Part shown: piece by piece, positions 3,794 to 34,241 of the stretch
Numbering within the stretch: position 1 is the first letter of the stretch
Layout of the letters: the number at the start of each line of letters is the position of its first letter
NCBI RefSeq assembly: GCF_003999195.1
Contig: NZ_RJVR01000259.1
Span: 1-64,000, forward strand
From: Streptomyces soli
Lineage (GTDB): Bacteria > Actinomycetota > Actinomycetes > Streptomycetales > Streptomycetaceae
Reading direction: 5' to 3'
DNA: 64,000 bases
The notes under the pieces: model-generated
Told to the model about the DNA's origin: nothing
Databases searched by the model: none
Seen by the model: only the letters and a program-made list of their open reading frames with translations
Translations under genes and position numbers: made by a program

Positions 3794-4453
3794 TCACGGA
3801 CCCGTGGAGATACCGCTGATCAACGTCTCGGCGACATGGTCCGCGTACACGCGCACCTTGGCCGGGTTTCCCGCGTCCACTTCGACCGACATACGGGCCG
3901 CGAGTCCAGCCTGACCATATTGCGCCGTCCCTCCCGAAGTGATCAGGAAGAAGAGAATCTCCGACGGAATCGGCTTGATTCTGCCCTGTTCCTGCAATTG
4001 CTCGAGAATCGACAGGAAACGAGACCGAAGAGGGCTGATGTAGTTGTCGTATAGATAATCCAGCCGGTCCGTTGGAGCGGCACCTTCAAGGGTCGCAAGA
4101 CGGGCCAGATAAGGCCTGGTAGCGGAATACTCAATAAAACCGCGAATAAGCGTCCGCAACCGCTCCATCGGATCGGCCGCTTCATCGTCGATGGCCTCCA
4201 GGTGCGCCACCAAGGCGCCGAAGCCCCAGTCGACCGCAGCGCGCCACAGATTCGCCTTCGAACCGAAGCGCTGATACAGAAGATTCCGGCTCACGCCCAA
4301 CTGATCGTTGACATTGCGCAGCGAAACCCCGTCATAACCGTGAACGGAAAACGCCTCTACTGCCGCGGGCAGTACCTCACTCATGGGAGCGGGCTGGGCA
4401 CCCTTCCGAGGACGCCCACGCGGGCGGGTGGCCGGGCGAGGAGCAGTAGACAT
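3794..4453 (-). CDS. TetR family regulator of lower GC content
   Basis: A 219-residue one-component repressor. Residues 1-25 are a basic Pro/Arg tail (RPRGRPRKG). The helix-turn-helix follows at about residues 30-75 (GYDGVSLRNVNDQLGVSRNLLYQRFGSK), and the rest is an alpha-helical ligand domain with no recognisable ligand. DNA at about 3910-4160 is clearly poorer in GC than the neighbours, with AT-ending codons, suggesting recent acquisition. No good Shine-Dalgarno precedes the ATG, and a 15-bp palindrome sits 3 nt upstream, so the mRNA may be leaderless and autorepressed. An internal Met at residue 24 is an alternative start but lacks a ribosome site too. Its target gene is not evident nearby. 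Confidence 0.85.
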   Translation of the reverse strand: MSTAPRPATRPRGRPRKGAQPAPMSEVLPAAVEAFSVHGYDGVSLRNVNDQLGVSRNLLYQRFGSKANLWRAAVDWGFGALVAHLEAIDDEAADPMERLRTLIRGFIEYSATRPYLARLATLEGAAPTDRLDYLYDNYISPLRSRFLSILEQLQEQGRIKPIPSEILFFLITSGGTAQYGQAGLAARMSVEVDAGNPAKVRVYADHVAETLISGISTGP

Positions 4454-25810: not shown

Positions 25811-26728
25811 TCAGCTGCCGGTCCGGAGGACCCCAGGCAGCGTGACCACGGCGCCCGAGGATTCCGGGCCCCGGCAGGTGCGGCGGTGGAGCTGGACCAT
25901 TTGGTCCGCCCGGAAGTTGTCGCGGAAGGCAGGGTGGCGGTGGAGGCGTCGTACGTAGTCCCAGAGCCGGTCGTGTCGGGAGACGGCGTGGACGGCGTCG
26001 GCGTCCAGGTGGACCCGGTGGACGACGTCGAGGTGCACGAGGGTCACCCAGAGATCCACGTCAGCGGCGCTGACTTCGTCGCCCAGCGCGTAGGGCCGGC
26101 AGGCCAGTTGGCGGTCGAGGAGGTCCAGCGCCGCGAGCAGGGTGTCCAGTGCCTCCCCGTGGCGCTGCGACGCCGGGGCCGCGCCCGCTCGCTGCGCGGC
26201 CTGGGTGATGTCCTCGTCGAGGAGTTCACGCATGGTGTCGATGTCGGCGGCAAGGGCCGCCGGCCGCAGGTGGGGGCGGTCGGGCTTGCACTGGTCGCCG
26301 AAGTAGCCGGCGAGGTCACGGAGGATGTCACGGGCGTGGTTGCTGACGACGCGTCCGCTCCAGCGGTCGCACAGCGCGGGCACGGTCAGCGGACCGTTGT
26401 AGTGGTGCCGGGTGGCCTCGTAGGCCCCCCGCAGTGAGGCGAGGGCATCGGGGGCGTCGGCCGGGTGGGCGAGGTGGGTGGTGGTGACCCAGTCCCTGAG
26501 TCCCAGTAGGTCGAGGGTGATCGAGACACGCAGCGAGTTCGGACAGCCCGGGGTGAGATACACCTGAAAGCGGTGTGGGGCCGGGTAGAAGCCGCCTGCG
26601 GGGTCGACGCCGATGCGGCTGCGAAAGTGGTGTGCGCGGATGGACGGCGTGGCCTCGGGGTGGGACGGGCCGGGCTGGAGATCGGGAAGGGTGGCCGAAC
26701 CTGAACTGAGCGTGACTGTCTCGGTCAT
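25811..26728 (-). CDS. Glutathione S-transferase, xi-class-like (hydroquinone reductase fold)
   Basis: A 305-residue protein. Residues 50-75 carry YLTPGCPNSLRVSITLDLLGL; the usual CPWC of glutathionyl-hydroquinone reductases is CPNS here, keeping the first Cys. NGPLTVPALCDRWSGRVVSNHARDI and the helical domain (DEVSAADVDLWVTLVHLDVV) fit the family. Actinomycetes lack glutathione, so mycothiol may be the partner. ATG 26728 follows GGAGAG; an ATG four codons upstream is less well placed. A sulfur-type leader peptide lies about 100 bp upstream on the same strand, suggesting sulfur-responsive control. Confidence 0.82.
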   Translation of the reverse strand: MTETVTLSSGSATLPDLQPGPSHPEATPSIRAHHFRSRIGVDPAGGFYPAPHRFQVYLTPGCPNSLRVSITLDLLGLRDWVTTTHLAHPADAPDALASLRGAYEATRHHYNGPLTVPALCDRWSGRVVSNHARDILRDLAGYFGDQCKPDRPHLRPAALAADIDTMRELLDEDITQAAQRAGAAPASQRHGEALDTLLAALDLLDRQLACRPYALGDEVSAADVDLWVTLVHLDVVHRVHLDADAVHAVSRHDRLWDYVRRLHRHPAFRDNFRADQMVQLHRRTCRGPESSGAVVTLPGVLRTGS

Positions 26729-26822
26729 GGCTCTCTCCATGGCAGGGGTGACGCCCCGGTGGCCTGTTCGGCGCCGGTGGCGGAAGGCGGGAGGAAAGGT
26801 CGACTGCGCTTTCGGACCAGGC

Positions 26823-26848
26823 CAGGCCCGATCAGATGGCAGGGCCTG
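26823..26848 (-). promoter_or_regulatory. Hairpin at the end of the GST leader peptide
   Basis: CAGGCCC (26823-26829) pairs with GGGCCTG (26842-26848), spanning the leader stop codon at 26832-26834. It is a candidate attenuation structure, without a T-run. Confidence 0.4.
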
Positions 26849-26930
26849 CGGCGCTGCAGACCCGAAGCAAGTCGATGTGCAGGCGCCTGGTCAGATGGGC
26901 GCCTTCCCTCTCACTGCCAGTACGGAGCAT
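26832..26930 (-). CDS. Short leader peptide upstream of the GST gene
   Basis: The 32-residue frame from ATG 26930 contains LTRRLHIDLLRVCSAAG near its end. This matches the actinomycete putative leader peptide pattern (RRxHIDLxRVxSAxC) found upstream of sulfur and cysteine genes. The one Cys follows the RV. It lies 104 bp upstream of the GST start. Initiation could also be at another codon, as the ribosome site is weak. A second such peptide lies on the opposite strand at 27289. Confidence 0.65.
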   Translation of the reverse strand: MLRTGSEREGAHLTRRLHIDLLRVCSAAGPAI

Positions 26931-27288
26931 GTCCACCGGTCCGTCATCGGGGCTCGCGAGACACGAGACCGCTCTTGCCCCGCCGCGCCGGCGGGACCGG
27001 GTCGTCACCCGGGGCACCCCGTCGCGGTGGAAGGGTTGCCTGTCAGCGGGCCGGGGCCGATGACCCACGCGGGCAGGAACCCTGCCGGTGGGCGCTGACT
27101 ATCGTGACCGTCCACAACAGTGTGGTTGCGCTCCGCAAGGCCGTCAAGAAGGCATCGCGCCGGTCTCACAGGTCGGTCGTGCCCGTCCGCGAGGCTGCGC
27201 AGGGGGCGGAATAAGTGGCGTGGCGGTGGTGTTTCTGGCACGACGCGGCCGTGGGGGCCGCGAGGCCGGAAGGGTGGAGGTGATGGCG

Positions 27289-27408
27289 ATGCAGCCCGTG
27301 TCCTCCCGGTACGTCGTCGTCGACCTGGCACCGCGCGGCTGTGTCCGTCTGTACTCCCGGCCTCACATCGACCTGCTGCGGGTGGCCGGCGCGCTCTGTT
27401 GTTCCTGA
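27289..27408 (+). CDS. Short leader peptide upstream of the monooxygenase operon
   Basis: A 39-residue peptide. GGAGG lies eight bases before ATG 27289 (an ATG two codons earlier is too close). Its C-terminus RPHIDLLRVAGALCCS fits the sulfur leader-peptide pattern, ending in two consecutive Cys codons and Ser. Ribosome pausing at those codons when Cys-tRNA is short is a plausible regulatory step for the flavin monooxygenase genes that begin 78 bp downstream. From 26931 to 27288 I see no other gene. Confidence 0.75.
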   Translation: MQPVSSRYVVVDLAPRGCVRLYSRPHIDLLRVAGALCCS

Positions 27409-27485
27409 CCTGTTTCCCACGCCGCTGAGCCCTCCGGCTGAGGCTCCGCGATCACGTACGGTCGATCAGGAAGGCACCTTTCCCC

Positions 27486-28748
27486 GTGTCTGCATTCCCT
27501 TCATCCCTCTCGCCTTCATCCCCTTCGCCCCTTCATCTCGCCGTCGCCCTTGACGGCGCCGGCTGGCACCCCGCCGCATGGCGTGAGCCGGAGGCCCGGC
27601 CCCGGGATCTGCTCACCGCCGGTTACTGGGCCGACGTCGTCACCGAGGCCGAACGCGGCCTGCTCGACTTCGTGACCTTCGAGGACGCGCTCGCGCTCCA
27701 GTCCTCGCAGGTCACAGAGCCGGACGGGCGCACCGACCAGGTGCGCGGCCGGCTGGACGCGGTGCTCATCGCCGCCCGCGTCGCGCCGCTGACCCGGCAC
27801 ATCGGGCTGGTGCCGACCGTCGTCGCCACCCACACCGAGCCCTTCCACATCTCCAAGGCCATCGCCACCCTGGACTACGTCAGCACCGGTCGTGCGGGCC
27901 TGCGGGTGCAGGTGTCCGGGCGGAATCACGAGGCCGCGCACTTCGGCCGCCGTACGTTCCCGGCGGTCAACATCAAGGGCGTCGAGAGGCCCAGCGACCC
28001 GGTCGTACGGGAGCTGATCGCCGAGCTCTTCGGCGAGGCCGCCGACTACGTCGAGGTGGTGCGCCGCCTGTGGGACAGCTGGGAGGACGACGCGGAGATC
28101 CGGGACGTGGCCACCGGGCGCTTCGTCGACCGCGACAAGCTGCACTACATCGACTTCGAGGGCCGGAACTTCAGCGTCAAAGGCCCCTCGATCACACCCC
28201 GGCCGCCCCAGGGACAGCCGATCGTGAGCGCGCTGGCGCACGGTCCCCTTCCATACGAGCTGGTGGGCCGCTCGACCGACATCGGATACGTCACCCCGCA
28301 CGACGCCGACCAGGCCCGGGACATCGTCACCGAGATCCGCACCGCCCAGGCCGAGGCGGGGCGGGCCGACGAGCCCCTGCACGTCTTCGGTGATCTGGTG
28401 GTCTTCCTCGACGACGACCCAGCGGCGGCGGCGGCCCGCAAGGCCCGCCTGGACGACCTCGCCGGTTACGTCTACACCAGCGACGCGGAGATCTTCACCG
28501 GCACACCCGCACAACTCGCCGACCGGCTGGTCGAGTGGCGGCAGGCCGGGCTGTCCGGCTTCCGGCTGCGCCCCGGCGTCATCGGCCAGGACCTCCAGGC
28601 GATCACCCGCGGCCTGGTGCCCGAACTCCAGCGCCGCGACGCCTTCCGGCACACCTACGAGGCCGACACCCTGCGCGGGCTGCTCGGACTCGACCACCCC
28701 GCCAACCGCTACGCCACCGCCACCGCGACCGCGACCGCGACCGCCTGA
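27486..28748 (+). CDS. FMNH2-dependent LLM-class monooxygenase (sulfur scavenging type)
   Basis: A 420-residue TIM-barrel flavin monooxygenase starting at GTG 27486. Recognisable blocks are LHLAVALDGAGWHPAAWRE, LLDFVTFEDALAL, LTRHIGLVPTVVATHTEPFH and LDYVSTGRAGLRVQVSGRN. Family members release sulfite from organosulfur compounds or attack related substrates using reduced FMN; the substrate is not deducible. The C-terminus is an odd (Ala-Thr)n tail from a GCGACC repeat. It is first of three adjacent LLM genes behind a sulfur leader peptide. Confidence 0.85.
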   Translation: MSAFPSSLSPSSPSPLHLAVALDGAGWHPAAWREPEARPRDLLTAGYWADVVTEAERGLLDFVTFEDALALQSSQVTEPDGRTDQVRGRLDAVLIAARVAPLTRHIGLVPTVVATHTEPFHISKAIATLDYVSTGRAGLRVQVSGRNHEAAHFGRRTFPAVNIKGVERPSDPVVRELIAELFGEAADYVEVVRRLWDSWEDDAEIRDVATGRFVDRDKLHYIDFEGRNFSVKGPSITPRPPQGQPIVSALAHGPLPYELVGRSTDIGYVTPHDADQARDIVTEIRTAQAEAGRADEPLHVFGDLVVFLDDDPAAAAARKARLDDLAGYVYTSDAEIFTGTPAQLADRLVEWRQAGLSGFRLRPGVIGQDLQAITRGLVPELQRRDAFRHTYEADTLRGLLGLDHPANRYATATATATATA

Positions 28749-28767
28749 CCGGAGGGACCGTACGACC

Positions 28768-30150
28768 ATGAGCAAGCCTCTCAAGCAGATCCATCTCGCG
28801 GCCCACTTCCCCGGCGTCAACAACACCACCGTATGGAGCGACCCGAAGGCCGGCAGCCACATCGAGTTCAGCTCATTCGCGCACTTCGCGCGAACCGCCG
28901 AACGCGCCAAGTTCGACTTCCTGTTCCTCGCCGAAGGACTGCGGCTGCGCGAACAGGGCGGGAAAATATACGACCTGGACGTGGTCGGATGGCCCGACAC
29001 CTTCACCGTCCTGTCCGCCCTCGCCGCCGTGACCGAGCGCCTCGGCCTGACCGGCACCATCAACTCCACCTTCAACGAGCCCTACGAGGTGGCCCGGCAA
29101 TTCGCCAGCCTCGACCACCTGTCCGACGGGCGCGCCGCCTGGAACGTCGTCACCTCATGGGACGCCTTCACCGGCGAAAACTTCCGCCGGGGCGGCTTCC
29201 TCCCGCAGAACGAGCGCTACTCCCGGGCCAAGGAGTTCCTGGCGACCGCCACCGAGCTGTTCGACTCCTGGCATGGTGACGAGATCGTCGCCGACCAGGC
29301 GTCCGGCATCTTCCTCAAGGACGCGGCAGCCGGCGCCTTCGTCCACCAGGGACAGCACTTCGACATCGCCGGGCAGTTCAACGTCCCCCGCAGCCCACAG
29401 GGACGTCCGGTGATCTTCCAGGCCGGCGACTCCGACGAAGGACGCGAGTTCGCCGCGGCCGGCGCGGACGCCATCTTCAGCCGGCACAGCACCCTGGACA
29501 CCGGACGGGACTTCTACGCCGATGTCAAGGGCCGGCTGGCCCGTTACGGCCGCAGCCACGACCAGCTGCTGATCCTGCCCGCCGCGACCTTCGTCCTCGG
29601 CGACACCGACGCCGAGGCGCAGGAGCTGGCCCACGAGATCCGACGCCAGCAGGTCAGCGGCCAGACCGCGATCAACTTCCTGGAGCAGGTCTGGAACCGC
29701 GACCTGTCCGGCTACGACCCGGACGGGCCCCTCCCCGGCATCGACCCGGACCCCGGCGAGCACACCATCGCCCGGGGCCGGGCCAGCGTCCGGATGCACC
29801 GGGACCCGGTGGCCGTCGCCCGGGAATGGCGCGAGCGCGCGGCGGCGGAAGGCCTGTCGATCCGCGAGCTGGTCATCGAGACCACCGGCCGGCAGTCGTT
29901 CGTCGGCTCCCCCGCCACCGTCGCCGAGACCATCGACTCCTTCGTCCAGGGGGACGCCGCCGACGGTTTCATCCTGGTCCCGCACATCACCCCCACCGGC
30001 CTGGACGCCTTCGCCGACACCGTCGTCCCGCTGCTCCAGGAGCGCGGCGTGTTCCGCGAGGACTACACCGGCACCACGCTGCGCGACCACCTCGGACTGG
30101 CCCACCCCGACGCCGGCGAGGAGCCGGTCACCCGGCGGGCGGCGTCATGA
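28768..30150 (+). CDS. NtaA/DmoA-family FMN-dependent monooxygenase
   Basis: A 460-residue protein with GGAGGG upstream of ATG 28768. Family hallmarks are IHLAAHFPGVNNTTVWSDP, FDFLFLAEGLRLRE, LDHLSDGRAAWNVVTS and HFDIAGQFNVPRSPQGRPVI. NtaA, SnaA, DszA and DmoA oxidise nitrilotriacetate, streptogramin precursors, dibenzothiophene sulfone and dimethyl sulfide. Here the sulfur leader peptide and neighbouring MetX/MetY favour an organosulfur substrate. It starts 19 bp after the previous gene and overlaps the next start by 4 bp (ATGA). Confidence 0.88.
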   Translation: MSKPLKQIHLAAHFPGVNNTTVWSDPKAGSHIEFSSFAHFARTAERAKFDFLFLAEGLRLREQGGKIYDLDVVGWPDTFTVLSALAAVTERLGLTGTINSTFNEPYEVARQFASLDHLSDGRAAWNVVTSWDAFTGENFRRGGFLPQNERYSRAKEFLATATELFDSWHGDEIVADQASGIFLKDAAAGAFVHQGQHFDIAGQFNVPRSPQGRPVIFQAGDSDEGREFAAAGADAIFSRHSTLDTGRDFYADVKGRLARYGRSHDQLLILPAATFVLGDTDAEAQELAHEIRRQQVSGQTAINFLEQVWNRDLSGYDPDGPLPGIDPDPGEHTIARGRASVRMHRDPVAVAREWRERAAAEGLSIRELVIETTGRQSFVGSPATVAETIDSFVQGDAADGFILVPHITPTGLDAFADTVVPLLQERGVFREDYTGTTLRDHLGLAHPDAGEEPVTRRAAS

Positions 30151-31044
30151 AGTTCCTGGCCATCACCCTCATCGTGCACGCCCCGGACCCGGTGACCGGC
30201 GTACTCAAGCCGACCAACGACCGCTTCCGCGAGGTGATCGACAACGCCCTGCTGTCGAGGAGCTCGGCTTCGACGGCTTCGGCGTCGGCGAACGCCACGA
30301 GCGGCCGTTCATCTCCTCCTCGCCGCCGGTCGTCCTCAGTCACATCGCCGCGCTCACCTCCCGGATCCGGCTGTTCACCGCCGTCACCACCCTCAGCCTG
30401 CTCGATCCGGTGCGTGCGTACGAGGACTACGCGACCCTCGACCACCTGCCGGACGGCCGTCTGGACCTGATCATCGGCAAGGGCAACGGCACCGCCCAGC
30501 GCGAGCTGTTCCACGTCACCCCGGAGGACCAGTGGGACCGCAACGCCGAGAGCTATGAGCTGTTCCGCCGGCTCTGGCGGCAGGACAAGGTGACCGCCTC
30601 CCCGCGCTTCCGCCCGGAGCTGACCGCGGCCGAGGTCTGGCCCAGGCCCCTCCAGCAGCCCATCCGGGTCTGGCACGGCAGCGCGACGAGCCGCGAGTCC
30701 GTCGACCTGGCCGCCCGCTACGGCGATCCGCTCTTCTCGGCCAACGTCACCAACACGATCGAGCCGTACGCCGAACTCATCCGCTACTACCGACAGCAGT
30801 GGGAGCACTACGGCCACGACCCGGCCGCCGCCGTCGTCGGCGCGGGAACCGCCGGTTACTACGCCGCCTCCACCTCGCAGGAGGCCATGGCCTCGTCGGC
30901 TCACCGAAGCGCGTCGCCGACCAGCTCGAACAGCTCCAGGAAGCCACCGGCGCCGACGAGTTGATCATCACCACCATCACCCACAGCCACACCGACCGCG
31001 TCCGCTCCTACCAACTCCTGGCCGAGGAGTGGCACCGCCGCTGA
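30147..31044 (+). pseudogene. CE1758-type luciferase-like monooxygenase, frameshifted and deleted
   Basis: ATG 30147 overlaps the upstream stop. Family sequence runs in three frames. The first is MKFLAITLIVHAPDPVTGVL to about 30250. A frame one base off (GFDGFGVGERHERPF, then YEDYATLDHLPDGRLDLIIG to GTAGYYAASTSQEA) continues to about 30886. A third (GLVGSPKRVADQLEQL to HSHTDRVRSYQLLAEEW) ends at 31044. One missing base near 30254 and an internal deletion near 30886 explain this. About 298 codons remain of roughly 340. The codon use is otherwise normal, suggesting recent decay. Confidence 0.82.
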
Positions 31045-31068
31045 GCCGGTGTCGCGCTGCGGCTCAGC

Positions 31069-31449
31069 TCAGTCCCGCCAGTCGAGTTGGTGATCGGGCA
31101 CTCCGACCGACCGGCCGTAAGCCACAGCCTCGGCGCGGCCTGCCTCGTCCCCGCGCGGGAAACGGAAGACCTTGCCGGCGAAGACGACCACGCGCTCGTC
31201 GTCGGTGGCGAAGTCCGCGTACCAGCCGCCCTCCGCCGACAGGCAGGCCGCGAGCTCTTCCGCGAGGCCGTCGACGTCGTGGCCGTCGTGGTCCTCGGCC
31301 TCGAAGTCGATGACCGTCCAGATCTGCGGCTGACCGGATACGGCACCGGCTGATAGGTTGAGCCGCGTGATCCTGCGGATCCGCAGATGCCGCGGCTCGA
31401 ACACCGAGCCAGCGCGCAAGCTGTCGCCAACGAGACATCCGGTGATCAC
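31069..31449 (-). CDS. Hypothetical acidic protein
   Basis: A 126-residue protein I do not recognise. Its C-terminal two thirds are acidic and look globular (IWTVIDFEAEDHDGHDVDGL, GGWYADFATDDERVVVFAGK). There is no signal peptide or membrane helix. It lies 10 bp downstream of metX on the same strand, so it may be the last gene of the metY-metX operon, and it converges with the broken monooxygenase. GC-rich third positions support coding. Confidence 0.65.
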   Translation of the reverse strand: MITGCLVGDSLRAGSVFEPRHLRIRRITRLNLSAGAVSGQPQIWTVIDFEAEDHDGHDVDGLAEELAACLSAEGGWYADFATDDERVVVFAGKVFRFPRGDEAGRAEAVAYGRSVGVPDHQLDWRD

Positions 31450-31459
31450 GTGCGGCCTC

Positions 31460-32608
31460 CTAGCCCGTGAGTTCGCGTACGAGTGCGGCGACCTGGTCGG
31501 TTTCGATGAGGAAGCCGTCGTGGCCGTAAGGGGATTCGATCACCCGCAGCCGGTCGGCGCCGGGGATGCCGGCCGCCAGCTCGGCCTGTTGCGAGAGCGG
31601 GTAGAGGCGGTCGGAGTCGACTCCGGCCACCAGGGTACGGGCGGTCACGCGGCGCAGGGCGGCGGCTGTGCCGCCTCGGGCCCGGCCGATGTCGTGGCTG
31701 TTCATGGCCTCGGTCAGTACGGTGTAGGAGCCGGCGTCGAAGCGGCGTACGAGCTTGGCGGCGTGGTGGTCGAGGTAGGACTCCACCTGGTAGCGGCCGT
31801 TGTGCCAGGGGTTCTCGGCGCCTTGCGGGGTGCGGCCGAACCGGGCCTGGAGTTCGGCTTCGCTGCGGTAGGTGACGTGGGCCAGGCGTCGGGCGAGGCC
31901 CAGCCCGGCGTGCGGTCCGTGGCCCGGGGCGGCGTCGTGGTAGTCGCCGCCGCGCCAGTGCGGGTCGGAGCGGATGGCGTGGAGCTGGATGGTGGCCCAG
32001 GCGATCTGCTCGGCGCTCGCCGCGGCGGGGCAGGCGAGGAGCAGCAGCGCCTGCGTACGTTCCGGGTGGGACACGGCCCACTCCAGGGCACGCATGCCGC
32101 CCATCGAGCCGCCGATGACCAGCGCCCAGCGGTCGATCCCCAGGGCGTCCGCCAAGTCGGCCTCGGCCGCGACCTGGTCACGCTGCGTCAGATACGGAAA
32201 GCTCCCGCCCCAGCGCCGTCCGTCCGGCCCGAGGGAGGAGGGGCCGGTGCTGCCCTGGCAGCCGCCCAGCACATTCGGCGCGACGACGAACCACCGGTCG
32301 GTGTCGAGCGCCCGGCCCGGTCCGATCAGCCCGTCCCACCACCCGGCGGTCGGATGGCCCGGACCGGCCGGGCCGACGACATGGCTGTCCCCGGTGAGCG
32401 CGTGCAGCACAAGGACGGCGTTGGAGCCGTCGGGCGCGAGGCGGCCCCAGGTCTCGTACGCCAGCCGCACTGTCCGGAGTTCGCCACCCGCCTCCAGGGC
32501 CAGCGGCTTCTCCCGTACGTGCCACTGGCGGCGGCCGGGCGGGTCCCCCTCCCGCCAGGCCCCGGAGGCCGGCGGGAGGGGGACCGCAGTGGCCGGTACG
32601 GTGTTCAG
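31460..32608 (-). CDS. metX: Homoserine O-acetyltransferase, apparent CTG start
   Basis: A 382-residue alpha/beta hydrolase-fold transferase that acetylates homoserine for methionine synthesis. The nucleophile elbow is GGSMGGMRALEW (about residue 145), the Asp lies in VAGVDSDRLYPL, and the His in YGHDGFLIE. The family N-terminus (WREGDPPGRRQWHVREKPL) lies upstream of the first in-frame GTG, and no ATG, GTG or TTG exists before it in frame. The likely initiator is CTG at 32608, which overlaps the metY stop as CTGA, in the way ATGA or GTGA junctions do elsewhere. Translational coupling to metY is therefore likely. Confidence 0.9.
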   Translation of the reverse strand: MNTVPATAVPLPPASGAWREGDPPGRRQWHVREKPLALEAGGELRTVRLAYETWGRLAPDGSNAVLVLHALTGDSHVVGPAGPGHPTAGWWDGLIGPGRALDTDRWFVVAPNVLGGCQGSTGPSSLGPDGRRWGGSFPYLTQRDQVAAEADLADALGIDRWALVIGGSMGGMRALEWAVSHPERTQALLLLACPAAASAEQIAWATIQLHAIRSDPHWRGGDYHDAAPGHGPHAGLGLARRLAHVTYRSEAELQARFGRTPQGAENPWHNGRYQVESYLDHHAAKLVRRFDAGSYTVLTEAMNSHDIGRARGGTAAALRRVTARTLVAGVDSDRLYPLSQQAELAAGIPGADRLRVIESPYGHDGFLIETDQVAALVRELTG

Positions 32609-33966
32609 GACGCGGCCTTGGCCGCGCGGAAGCCTGCCTCCAGGTCCGCCTTGAGGTCGGCGAGGTTCTCGATGCCGACCGACAGCCGCACCAGCCCCGG
32701 CGAGGTGCCGGTGGCCGCCAGCTGCTCCTCGTCCAGCTGACTGTGGGTGGTGGACGCCGGGTGGATGATGAGGCTCCGTACGTCGCCGATGTTGGCGAGG
32801 TGGCTGAACAGTTCGACGGCGTCCACGAAGCGCTTGCCCGCCTCGACGCCGTCGCGCAGTTCGAAGGCCAGCACCGCGCCGGCGCCACGCGGCAGGTAGC
32901 GCTGCCCGGCCTCGTACCACCGGTTGGACGGCAGTCCCGGGTAGTGGACAGCGGCGACCTCGTCGCGCTGCTCCAGCCATTCGGCCAGTGCCTGGGCGTT
33001 GGCGGAGTGCCTCTCGATGCGCAGCGACAGCGTCTCCACGCCCTGCAGCAGCAGGAAGGCGGAGTGCGGCGCGATGGCCGGGCCGATGTCGCGCAGCAAC
33101 TGCACCCGCAGCTTGATGGCGAACGCGCTCGGGCCGAGGACCGGCCAGTAGCGCAGGCCGTGGTAGCTGGGGTCGGGCTCGTTGAAGTCGGGGAAGCGCT
33201 CGGCGTTGGCGCCGAAGTCGAAGGTGCCGCCGTCGACCACGACGCCGCCGATGGTGGTGCCGTGGCCGCCGATGAACTTCGTCGCCGAGTGGACCACGAT
33301 GTCGGCGCCGTGCTCGATCGGCCGCAGCAGGTACGGGGTCGGCACCGTGTTGTCCACGATCAACGGGATGCCCGCGTCGTGCGCGACGTCGGCGACCGCC
33401 CGCACGTCCAGCACATTGCCGCGCGGATTGCCCAGCGTCTCGGCGAACAGCGCCTTGGTGTTGGGCTGGATCGCAGCCCGCCAGGCGTCGAAGTCGTCCG
33501 GGTCGTCGACGAAGGACACCTGGATGCCGAACTTGGGCAGGGTGTGCCGGAACAGGTTGTACGTACCTCCGTACAGGGAGGTGCTGGAGACGATGTGGTC
33601 CCCGGCGGACGCCAGCGTCAGGATTGCCAGCGTCTCCGCGGCCTGCCCCGAGGACAGCGCCACTGCCGCCACCCCGCCCTCCAGCGCGGCAATGCGCTGC
33701 TCGAAGACGTCCTGGGTGGGGTTGTGGATCCGGGTGTAGATGTTCCCCGGCTCGGCGAGCGAGAACAGGTCGGCGGCGTGCTGGGTGTCGCGGAAGACGA
33801 ACGACGTCGTCTGGTAGATCGGCACCGCCCGCGCTCCGGTCGTCGGGTCCGGCGCGGCACCGGCATGGATCTGCTTGGTCTCGAACGACCAGGCCGACGT
33901 GTCGGGCCCGGCCGGTTCCTCGTCGGGGGTATGTCCCGCGGTGACGGAGTCGATGGGCTGGCTCAT
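32605..33966 (-). CDS. metY: O-acetylhomoserine/O-acetylserine sulfhydrylase
   Basis: A 453-residue PLP enzyme of the Cys/Met metabolism family. It makes homocysteine from O-acetylhomoserine and sulfide. FETKQIHAGAAPDPTTGARA is the family start. SLYGGTYNLFRHTLP, VDNTVPTPYLLRP and the PLP lysine in VHSATKFIGGHGTTIGG (about residue 224) follow, and SVGIENLADLKADLEAG ends it. Transcription should be controlled by the leader peptide and intrinsic terminator upstream. It forms an operon with metX. Confidence 0.95.
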   Translation of the reverse strand: MSQPIDSVTAGHTPDEEPAGPDTSAWSFETKQIHAGAAPDPTTGARAVPIYQTTSFVFRDTQHAADLFSLAEPGNIYTRIHNPTQDVFEQRIAALEGGVAAVALSSGQAAETLAILTLASAGDHIVSSTSLYGGTYNLFRHTLPKFGIQVSFVDDPDDFDAWRAAIQPNTKALFAETLGNPRGNVLDVRAVADVAHDAGIPLIVDNTVPTPYLLRPIEHGADIVVHSATKFIGGHGTTIGGVVVDGGTFDFGANAERFPDFNEPDPSYHGLRYWPVLGPSAFAIKLRVQLLRDIGPAIAPHSAFLLLQGVETLSLRIERHSANAQALAEWLEQRDEVAAVHYPGLPSNRWYEAGQRYLPRGAGAVLAFELRDGVEAGKRFVDAVELFSHLANIGDVRSLIIHPASTTHSQLDEEQLAATGTSPGLVRLSVGIENLADLKADLEAGFRAAKAAS

Positions 33967-34065
33967 GGTTCTCCCTTGTACGGGTGGCGAGTGCAGGGGT
34001 AAGGCAAGGAGGCACAGGGGCAGCGGTCCGGGGCCCGGAAAGGGCAGCGGACAGCGCGGTGCTGA

Positions 34066-34097
34066 GGAAAAAAACGAACTGATCGCAAGACGATCAG
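34066..34097 (-). terminator. Intrinsic terminator (attenuator) between leader peptide and metY
   Basis: On the minus strand CTGATCG-TCTTG-CGATCAG (34097-34079) is followed by TTCG and a run of seven T (34074-34068). This is the only classical stem plus T-run I find in the window. It lies between the leader-peptide stop (34114) and metY (33966), so it should act as a conditional attenuator. Confidence 0.8.
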
Positions 34098-34113
34098 AGG
34101 CCGTAGCGGGGTG

Positions 34114-34188
34114 TCAGCTCACGGCGGGACGACCCGTGCTGGTGACACGCACGTAGTCCACGTGGCGGCGGGTCACAAGCACGGTCAT
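34114..34188 (-). CDS. Short leader peptide upstream of metY-metX
   Basis: A 24-residue peptide with LVTRRHVDYVRVTS, the HVDxxRVxS pattern of actinomycete sulfur leader peptides. Unlike the two at 26832 and 27289 it contains no Cys (the tail is TGRPAVS). It sits 16 nt before a hairpin/T-run terminator and about 150 nt before metY. Its arrangement fits attenuation, but the sensed amino acid is unclear. Confidence 0.75.
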   Translation of the reverse strand: MTVLVTRRHVDYVRVTSTGRPAVS

Positions 34189-34241
34189 GCCGCCAGGTAA
34201 CCACAACCGCGCGCCACACACCAGGGCAACCGGCACGGTGG

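Follow-up and report, generated by a model that had tools for sequence, protein, structure and literature searches.

The closest described relatives of the elements discussed here are the mycobacterial polycysteine small open reading frames (sORFs), which are reported to be cysteine-responsive attenuators (PMC13236596, PMC9094748; these papers and the others cited by PMC number are used as excerpts). In Mycobacterium tuberculosis there are also units that combine a riboswitch with an upstream open reading frame (uORF), namely a B12 unit (PMC11260477) and the Mg-sensing Mbox (PMC12810186). Here we describe three short open reading frames (ORFs), P1, P2 and P3, in a stretch of 64,000 nucleotides (nt) from Streptomyces soli (assembly GCF_003999195.1, contig NZ_RJVR01000259.1, positions 1 to 64,000 of the forward strand), which we call the window. 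They probably belong to a widespread group of actinobacterial leader peptides in which a conserved core is typically followed, at a fixed distance, by one particular cysteine codon.

26930-26832, minus strand: leader peptide P1, MLRTGSEREGAHLTRRLHIDLLRVCSAAGPAI and stop, core His codon at 26879-26877
27289-27408, plus strand: leader peptide P2, MQPVSSRYVVVDLAPRGCVRLYSRPHIDLLRVAGALCCS and stop, core His codon at 27364-27366
34188-34114, minus strand: leader peptide P3, MTVLVTRRHVDYVRVTSTGRPAVS and stop, core His codon at 34164-34162

The original prediction had placed three short ORFs here, each with a His-Ile/Val-Asp core before Arg-Val, and this is borne out, in the form H-[IV]-D-x-x-R-V. A six-frame search of the window gives three occurrences of the motif R-x-H-[IV]-D-x-x-R-V, against five in total over 200 first-order Markov shuffles. 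In an hmmscan search of NCBIfam, P2 is a member of NF042934 'putative leader peptide' (36.7 bits, E 2.2e-9, cut-off 27), and P1 (24.4 bits, E 1.6e-5) and P3 (21.7 bits, E 1.1e-4) score below that cut-off and are classed as sub-threshold relatives only. A Pfam search of the three peptides gave no match. The S. soli genome holds 10 leader matches at E<=0.3, so the leaders are no local oddity, and class-wide a match at E<=0.001 is found in 91 of 118 genomes. The leader is conserved with sulfur-related genes, at 23 of the 32 metY loci and 30 of the 32 glutathione S-transferase (GST) loci read, the latter taken from 68 matches; GST, metY and class-wide counts cover the best matches only. A further, named leader set comprises at least 80 loci picked out with a DNA pattern reaching as far as codon +6; it is uninformative on the core codons, and +7 and +11 are free of selection by the pattern. 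A distant metY match (L101) and 12 of 80 named pattern hits lying more than 40 codons before the stop are left out of the counts. L228, at the end of a 676-codon frame in a non-actinobacterium, is inside the 135 distinct leaders and outside the 122 pooled leaders used below. At an Actinacidiphila paucisporea locus the leader tail is the same as in genome G011, and Actinacidiphila is the probable genus of the genomes compared here.

Among the 135 distinct leaders listed, Asp is found at +2 from the core His in all 135, His at 0 in 134 and Arg at +5 in 132, counts that are biased upward by the detection patterns, in which D is required and H and R are preferred. In the same leaders Cys is found at +11 in 92, at +7 in 49 and at either position in 124, and at +8, +9 and +10 in 1, 2 and 7. 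Cys at +11 occurs in 22 of the 23 metY leaders found and in 28 of the 36 distinct leaders linked to a SAM-IV (S-adenosylmethionine, SAM) riboswitch. Among the 29 best class-wide profile hits it is present in 29 of 29, a count biased upward by a profile that scores the Cys itself; the core residue is His in 11 of them and Ala in 18, and the general core is therefore [H/A][IV]DxxR plus Cys at +11. Within these 29 loci (L300-L328) the 18 form an Ala-for-His subfamily, for example KRRAVDLCRVATCLC, whose Cys residues lie at +4, +9 and +11. The fixed layout, with one Cys codon at one position, suggests how these bacteria may sense their sulfur supply.

In the S. soli genome TGT stands at +11 in 8 of the 10 leaders. 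Both exceptions, P1 and P3, lie inside the window, which is why the Cys looked dispensable at first. The single Cys codon of P1 is a TGC at 26858-26856 (His+7), and its His+11 codon is GGC. P2 has TGT at 27397-27399 (His+11) and at 27400-27402 (+12), and a third Cys precedes its core; a Shine-Dalgarno (SD)-like GGAGG is found upstream at 27276-27280. The His+11 codon of P3 (34131-34129) is CGT (Arg), a single base away from the TGT that the 22 other metY leaders found all carry there, and P3 contains no Cys. The Cys contents of one, two and none given earlier are thus right for P1 and P3, but P2 has three. Judged by their sequences, both depart from the usual form of the family, P1 by its single Cys at +7, encoded by the common TGC, and P3 by the loss of Cys and a terminator of its own.

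The Cys at +11 is locked to one synonymous codon. All 54 orthologue-derived leaders use TGT there, as do 42 of 44 distinct named leaders among the matches listed and all 27 distinct class-wide leaders, which represent 13 families; pooled as distinct leaders with the GST set excluded, the count is 120 of 122 among the matches listed. The TGT share of Cys codons in coding frames is 9% (six window genes), 16% and 15%. When each of the 13 families is counted once, the chance of TGT at the 15% background is about 2.5e-11. In the same peptides the +7 Cys codon is mostly TGC (26 of 26 orthologue-derived leaders; 25 of 27 named ones among the matches listed), and the class-wide leaders provide an internal control, with 19 TGC and 1 TGT at +4 and 12 TGC and 5 TGT at +9. 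Among the matches listed, TGC at +11 is found only in Prauserella and Amycolatopsis. The base that follows the +11 codon in the 122 pooled leaders listed is C in 87, T in 25, A in 9 and G in 1, and this sole G follows an Amycolatopsis TGC; genic TGT is followed by G in 34.5% of cases. In a Salmonella his-leader assay, codons ending in C were read faster than those ending in U for most pairs (PMC4046918, as excerpted), and synonymous codon choice can set attenuator sensitivity, for example CUA in the leu leader (PMC1183508). Together these observations suggest the +11 TGT as a ribosome stall site. The lock is a synonymous-site constraint over 13 families sampled by protein profile, and it makes of the vague 'Cys-rich leader' a precise prediction of where the ribosome would stop and which base would matter.

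P1 is preceded by a riboswitch, which the original prediction did not mention.

26966..27109, minus strand: SAM-IV riboswitch aptamer (RF00634), located before P1 and the GST gene; cmscan 70.4 bits, gathering threshold 38, E 5.5e-12

The gap between the aptamer and the P1 start codon is 35 nt. Three SAM-IV elements are found in the S. soli genome, one before a class-V aminotransferase (desulfurase-like) gene without a leader, and P1's and one on contig C219, each then followed by a leader. A search of 34 genomes of the genus gave 74 SAM-IV elements above the cut-off (a 75th row below it was dropped). One per genome, recognised by eye, lies before the class-V aminotransferase gene (Pfam Aminotran_5, 253 bits in one example), and none of these 34 has a leader; in S. 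lividans a cysteine desulfurase gene lies behind the corresponding SAM-IV (PMC8079986, as excerpted). The remaining 40 have a leader within 400 nt in 34 cases (34/74 overall). With 27 more from a phylum-wide draw of 148 genomes we examined 101 SAM-IV elements, and a leader of at least 10 bits, by a profile trained partly on these same leaders, lies downstream of 38, compared with 0 of 101 upstream, 0 of 101 antisense and 1 of 101 in a control of one mononucleotide shuffle per element. Because of this training an independent check matters, and NCBI's own model finds a leader 31-107 nt behind at least 22 of these elements. Outside the genus the leader is found behind 4 of the 27 elements, and the four belong to a single second genus of its family. 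Micromonospora loci found via the leader have a SAM-IV by Rfam in 8 of 8 cases, and in a third family it precedes the leader at L304, the one positive among five additional class-wide leader loci put through Rfam. By visual reading of their translations, the genes behind SAM-IV/leader units are related to the window monooxygenases, transporter parts and GST. The linkage would place a riboswitch and a peptide sensor in series before organosulfur genes.

With E values up to 5 allowed, Rfam gave no family ahead of P3 in the window, and none on the strand of P2. In genomes G015 and G003 the same monooxygenase also has a P2-type leader, there with a SAM-IV, which the window P2 lacks. None of the 23 metY loci of this family that were tested has a SAM-IV (18 by pattern; the window, L088, L091, L093 and L096 by Rfam), and in other families a SAM-IV lies directly before metY or metX without a leader (one Pfam example each, the metX example only as alpha/beta hydrolase). 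SAM-IV and the leader appear to be interchangeable devices. An SD-like motif lies 10-34 nt behind the aptamer in 25 of the 38 SAM-IV units. A simple switch pairing between SAM-IV and the leader SD was considered and rejected, since the predicted partner is inconsistent in 25 folded units (12 in the aptamer, 13 downstream; P1's unit is not among them). Visual inspection of P1-type units had suggested a GGTCTC/GGGACC pairing, which was dropped, as several members are without it.

Several individual SAM-IV loci deserve mention. The second SAM-IV/leader unit of the S. soli genome (L083, contig C219, 3993-4240) has a core with Cys replacing His (RCVDLLRVSSALC), and the stretch upstream of it (3822-3904) matches window positions 27088-27171 at 84.5%. 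At L082 (1701-1812, minus strand; G024:C1:1085137-1085248) a SAM-IV of only 39.5 bits has behind it a Cys-rich frame that lacks the core, and this unit is apparently decaying. Divergent SAM-IV pairs are found in L055, L064, L053 and L304 (1095-1430), and in the first three each element has its own leader. At L074 (G010:C346:85713-86742) genes of unknown role are preceded by three leaderless SAM-IV elements that lie within about 1 kb.

The genes behind the three leaders are those named earlier, as confirmed by Pfam for the GST, the two monooxygenases and metY; the metX frame is assigned by eye alone.

25811..26740, minus strand: GST-family protein downstream of P1 (Pfam GST_C_2, 44.3 bits)
27486..28748, plus strand: luciferase-like flavin monooxygenase, first gene after P2 (Pfam PF00296, Bac_luciferase, 97.2 bits)
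28771..30150, plus strand: second luciferase-like monooxygenase of the P2 operon (Pfam PF00296, 148.4 bits)
32605..33966, minus strand: metY, Cys/Met metabolism pyridoxal phosphate (PLP) enzyme downstream of P3 (Pfam PF01053, Cys_Met_Meta_PP, 457.5 bits)
33967..34113, minus strand: C-rich, G-poor stretch from P3 to metY (C 0.43, G 0.22)
34079..34097, minus strand: intrinsic-terminator-like hairpin, then a T tract, between P3 and metY

It is plausible that GST, monooxygenases and transsulfuration form one regulon, as had been proposed. At window positions 34184-34205 (minus strand) there is a TGTGGTT...TGGCNNCATGAC-like stretch, which abuts the start codon in most metY leaders of the genus. Its position at the start codon suggests that the metY leaders may be read from a leaderless transcript.

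The RNA behind the leaders is rich in C and poor in G. In the 120 nt after the leader stop, C minus G is +0.181 (n=38), +0.203 (n=23) and +0.188 (n=63) in three leader groups, compared with +0.028 in 180 control regions, which are 5' regions and not transcribed spacers at large (p 2e-19 to 4e-11). The values after P1, P2 and P3 are +0.16, +0.14 and +0.21, and 21 of 29 class-wide loci exceed +0.1. Up to the first gene, the bias is milder after P1 (26741-26831, C 0.45/G 0.29) and P2 (27409-27485, 0.40/0.26) than in the P3 stretch listed above. The 23 metY leaders show no conserved RNA fold (RNAalifold -1.9 kcal), and a downstream minimum free energy z of -0.42 over 121 leaders indicates no conserved structure. 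A T5 tract follows 1 of 38 SAM-IV-linked and 1 of 23 metY leaders (2/61). The metY case is P3, and the other 22 metY leaders have none within 150 nt. C-rich and G-poor RNA, the lack of a conserved fold and the rarity of T5 tracts fit a Rho-type output better than a terminator/antiterminator device. With its hairpin, T tract and lost Cys, P3 is possibly a rewired or decaying attenuator.

Our preferred reading, to which we give a probability of about 0.6, is that the three ORFs are actinobacterial 'cis_reg_atten' leaders, in which a ribosome poised by the core would pause at a weak Cys codon and so control Rho-type attenuation, with a SAM sensor added in some operons. It builds on the family resemblance, the register, the TGT lock, the C-over-G stretch without a conserved hairpin found, and the SAM-IV linkage. 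From these we infer the following steps. A ribosome would translate the short peptide, and the core [H/A]-[IV]-D-x-x-R would lie in the upper exit tunnel as His+11 enters the A site. At that moment R, D and H would be five, eight and ten residues before the P-site residue. Such depths are near the tunnel constriction. In the standard form the +11 codon would be UGU, the Cys codon read by wobble, with a base other than G after it, and when charged tRNA-Cys is short, or on another signal from the core, the ribosome would pause there. The paused ribosome would alter the fate of the C-rich, G-poor RNA, most likely by blocking access of Rho, and the sulfur genes would be switched on. In a subset that includes P1, a preceding SAM-IV riboswitch would let the operon read SAM plus cysteine.

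A number of observations weigh against this reading. TGT at +11 is found in just 4 of 30 GST leaders, 3 of the 30 have no Cys anywhere, and P3 itself lacks Cys. The leader was not found by the pattern used at 9 of 32 metY and 2 of 32 GST loci. G follows TGT in 2 of the 8 S. soli leaders with TGT at +11 (contigs C20 and C37), both outside the 122 pooled leaders, and other attenuators use major codons, so that a rare codon is no general rule (PMC1183508). Six of the 40 genus SAM-IV elements that do not precede the aminotransferase gene are without a leader, and in 13 of the 38 SAM-IV units, P1's included, no SD-like motif was found in the 50 nt scanned. An action of the aptamer on the leader is hypothetical, because no consistent SD partner emerged. 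The other 8 of the 29 class-wide loci are not above +0.1 in C minus G, and the controls for this measure are 5' regions, not transcribed spacers in general.

The strongest alternative is nascent-chain arrest, in which the core itself stalls the ribosome on a small molecule or other signal and the Cys codons are incidental. The original prediction leaned this way in suggesting that the core matters more than Cys, and its premise stands in part: the core is common to leaders with different downstream genes, and its geometry is compatible with a nascent chain acting in the tunnel. The GST leaders give the best support, as they are present at nearly all GST loci read and include the Cys-free cases; where GST leaders have a Cys, it is mostly at +7. 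Leaders without Cys retain the core and then end, as in RVSSAY, RVASAA and RTSSAA, with the stop codon exactly at +11; a stop at this place is found in 5 of 30 GST leaders (TAG in four, TGA in one; L150, L144, L145, L147 and L152). The distance from core to Cys is also constant although the residues between them vary. As a general rule, however, the suggestion finds no support, since in metY leaders and in the class-wide set the Cys at +11 equals the core in conservation (the class-wide profile scoring that Cys), and it is present in most SAM-IV-linked leaders. The TGT constraint, which no protein profile selects, is unpredicted by a purely peptide-level arrest, for which a nucleotide-level constraint would be superfluous. 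We consider this explanation unlikely.

Plain tRNA-Cys attenuation, with the core as a leftover of common descent without a role, would agree with the mycobacterial polycysteine leaders reported as cysteine-responsive (PMC13236596, PMC9094748), and the metY leaders fit it. It leaves open why D and R of the core persist over 13 families whose leaders vary in N-terminal length, in the intervening residues and at the C-terminus, and why Cys clusters at set distances from the core, and so it seems rather improbable to us. That the UGU-Y tetranucleotide is an RNA-level site (for endonuclease cleavage, protein binding or base pairing) and no hungry codon would account for the constraint on both the third base and the following base, but it is very unlikely, as UGU-Y is in frame and locked 33 nt from the core codon, the pairing of the UGU is ordinary (0.49, 0.78 and 0.62 against a mean of 0.60) and RNAalifold on 23 metY leaders gave no conserved partner.

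The preferred reading can be extended to a class-wide scheme, in which a tunnel-contacting [H/A][IV]DxxR would hold the ribosome in register with a single hungry UGU-Y 11 codons on, and in which SAM-IV, coupled to this module in numerous organosulfur operons from three or more actinobacterial families, would make it a two-input cysteine/SAM switch with Rho-type output. The stop at +11 in some GST leaders would then be a termination-stalling version. We put this forward tentatively and consider it less likely than not.

In Escherichia coli TnaC, tunnel-contacting residues precede a fixed stall codon, a Rho region lies downstream, and the signal is free tryptophan. The action we propose for the leaders is similar, without any claim of sequence relation, and their signal would be low charged tRNA-Cys. 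The Rhodobacterales cysS uORFC-8-2 is, in the excerpts of PMC8632094, likewise a uORF with conserved Cys codons and a proposed ribosome-mediated attenuation, but there the Cys codon is mostly UGC and the motif includes a terminator, whereas in the leaders here UGU keeps a fixed register and the search for a conserved hairpin was negative. With the M. tuberculosis B12 and Mbox units, as excerpted, the P1 type shares the order of a riboswitch and then a small ORF, translated there and presumably so here; Mbox also has Rho-dependent termination, which we only infer for our leaders. Ligand and uORF differ, and the leader family described here is mostly riboswitch-free. Our searches of the open-licence PMC literature showed neither the combination of SAM-IV and leader peptide nor the TGT register, which is weak evidence of absence; the excerpts of PMC8079986, PMC3890552, PMC8269248 and PMC12452182 mention SAM-IV and link no leader peptide to it. 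NF042934 and the mycobacterial Ms4527A and Ms5788A families have the same core as the window leaders, with weak matches of P1 (21.1 bits of 45) and P3 (22.1 of 45) to Ms4527A and of P2 (15.9 of 45) to Ms5788A. In contrast to the mycobacterial polycysteine sORFs, the leaders here usually have one or two Cys and no Cys run, and compared with these sORFs and NF042934, P1 lies behind a SAM-IV aptamer, and P1 and P3 fall below the curated cut-off and are without Cys at +11. Compared with the SAM-IV riboswitch as described in RF00634, the first conserved ORF behind the aptamer at leader-linked loci is a leader peptide, not an enzyme gene.

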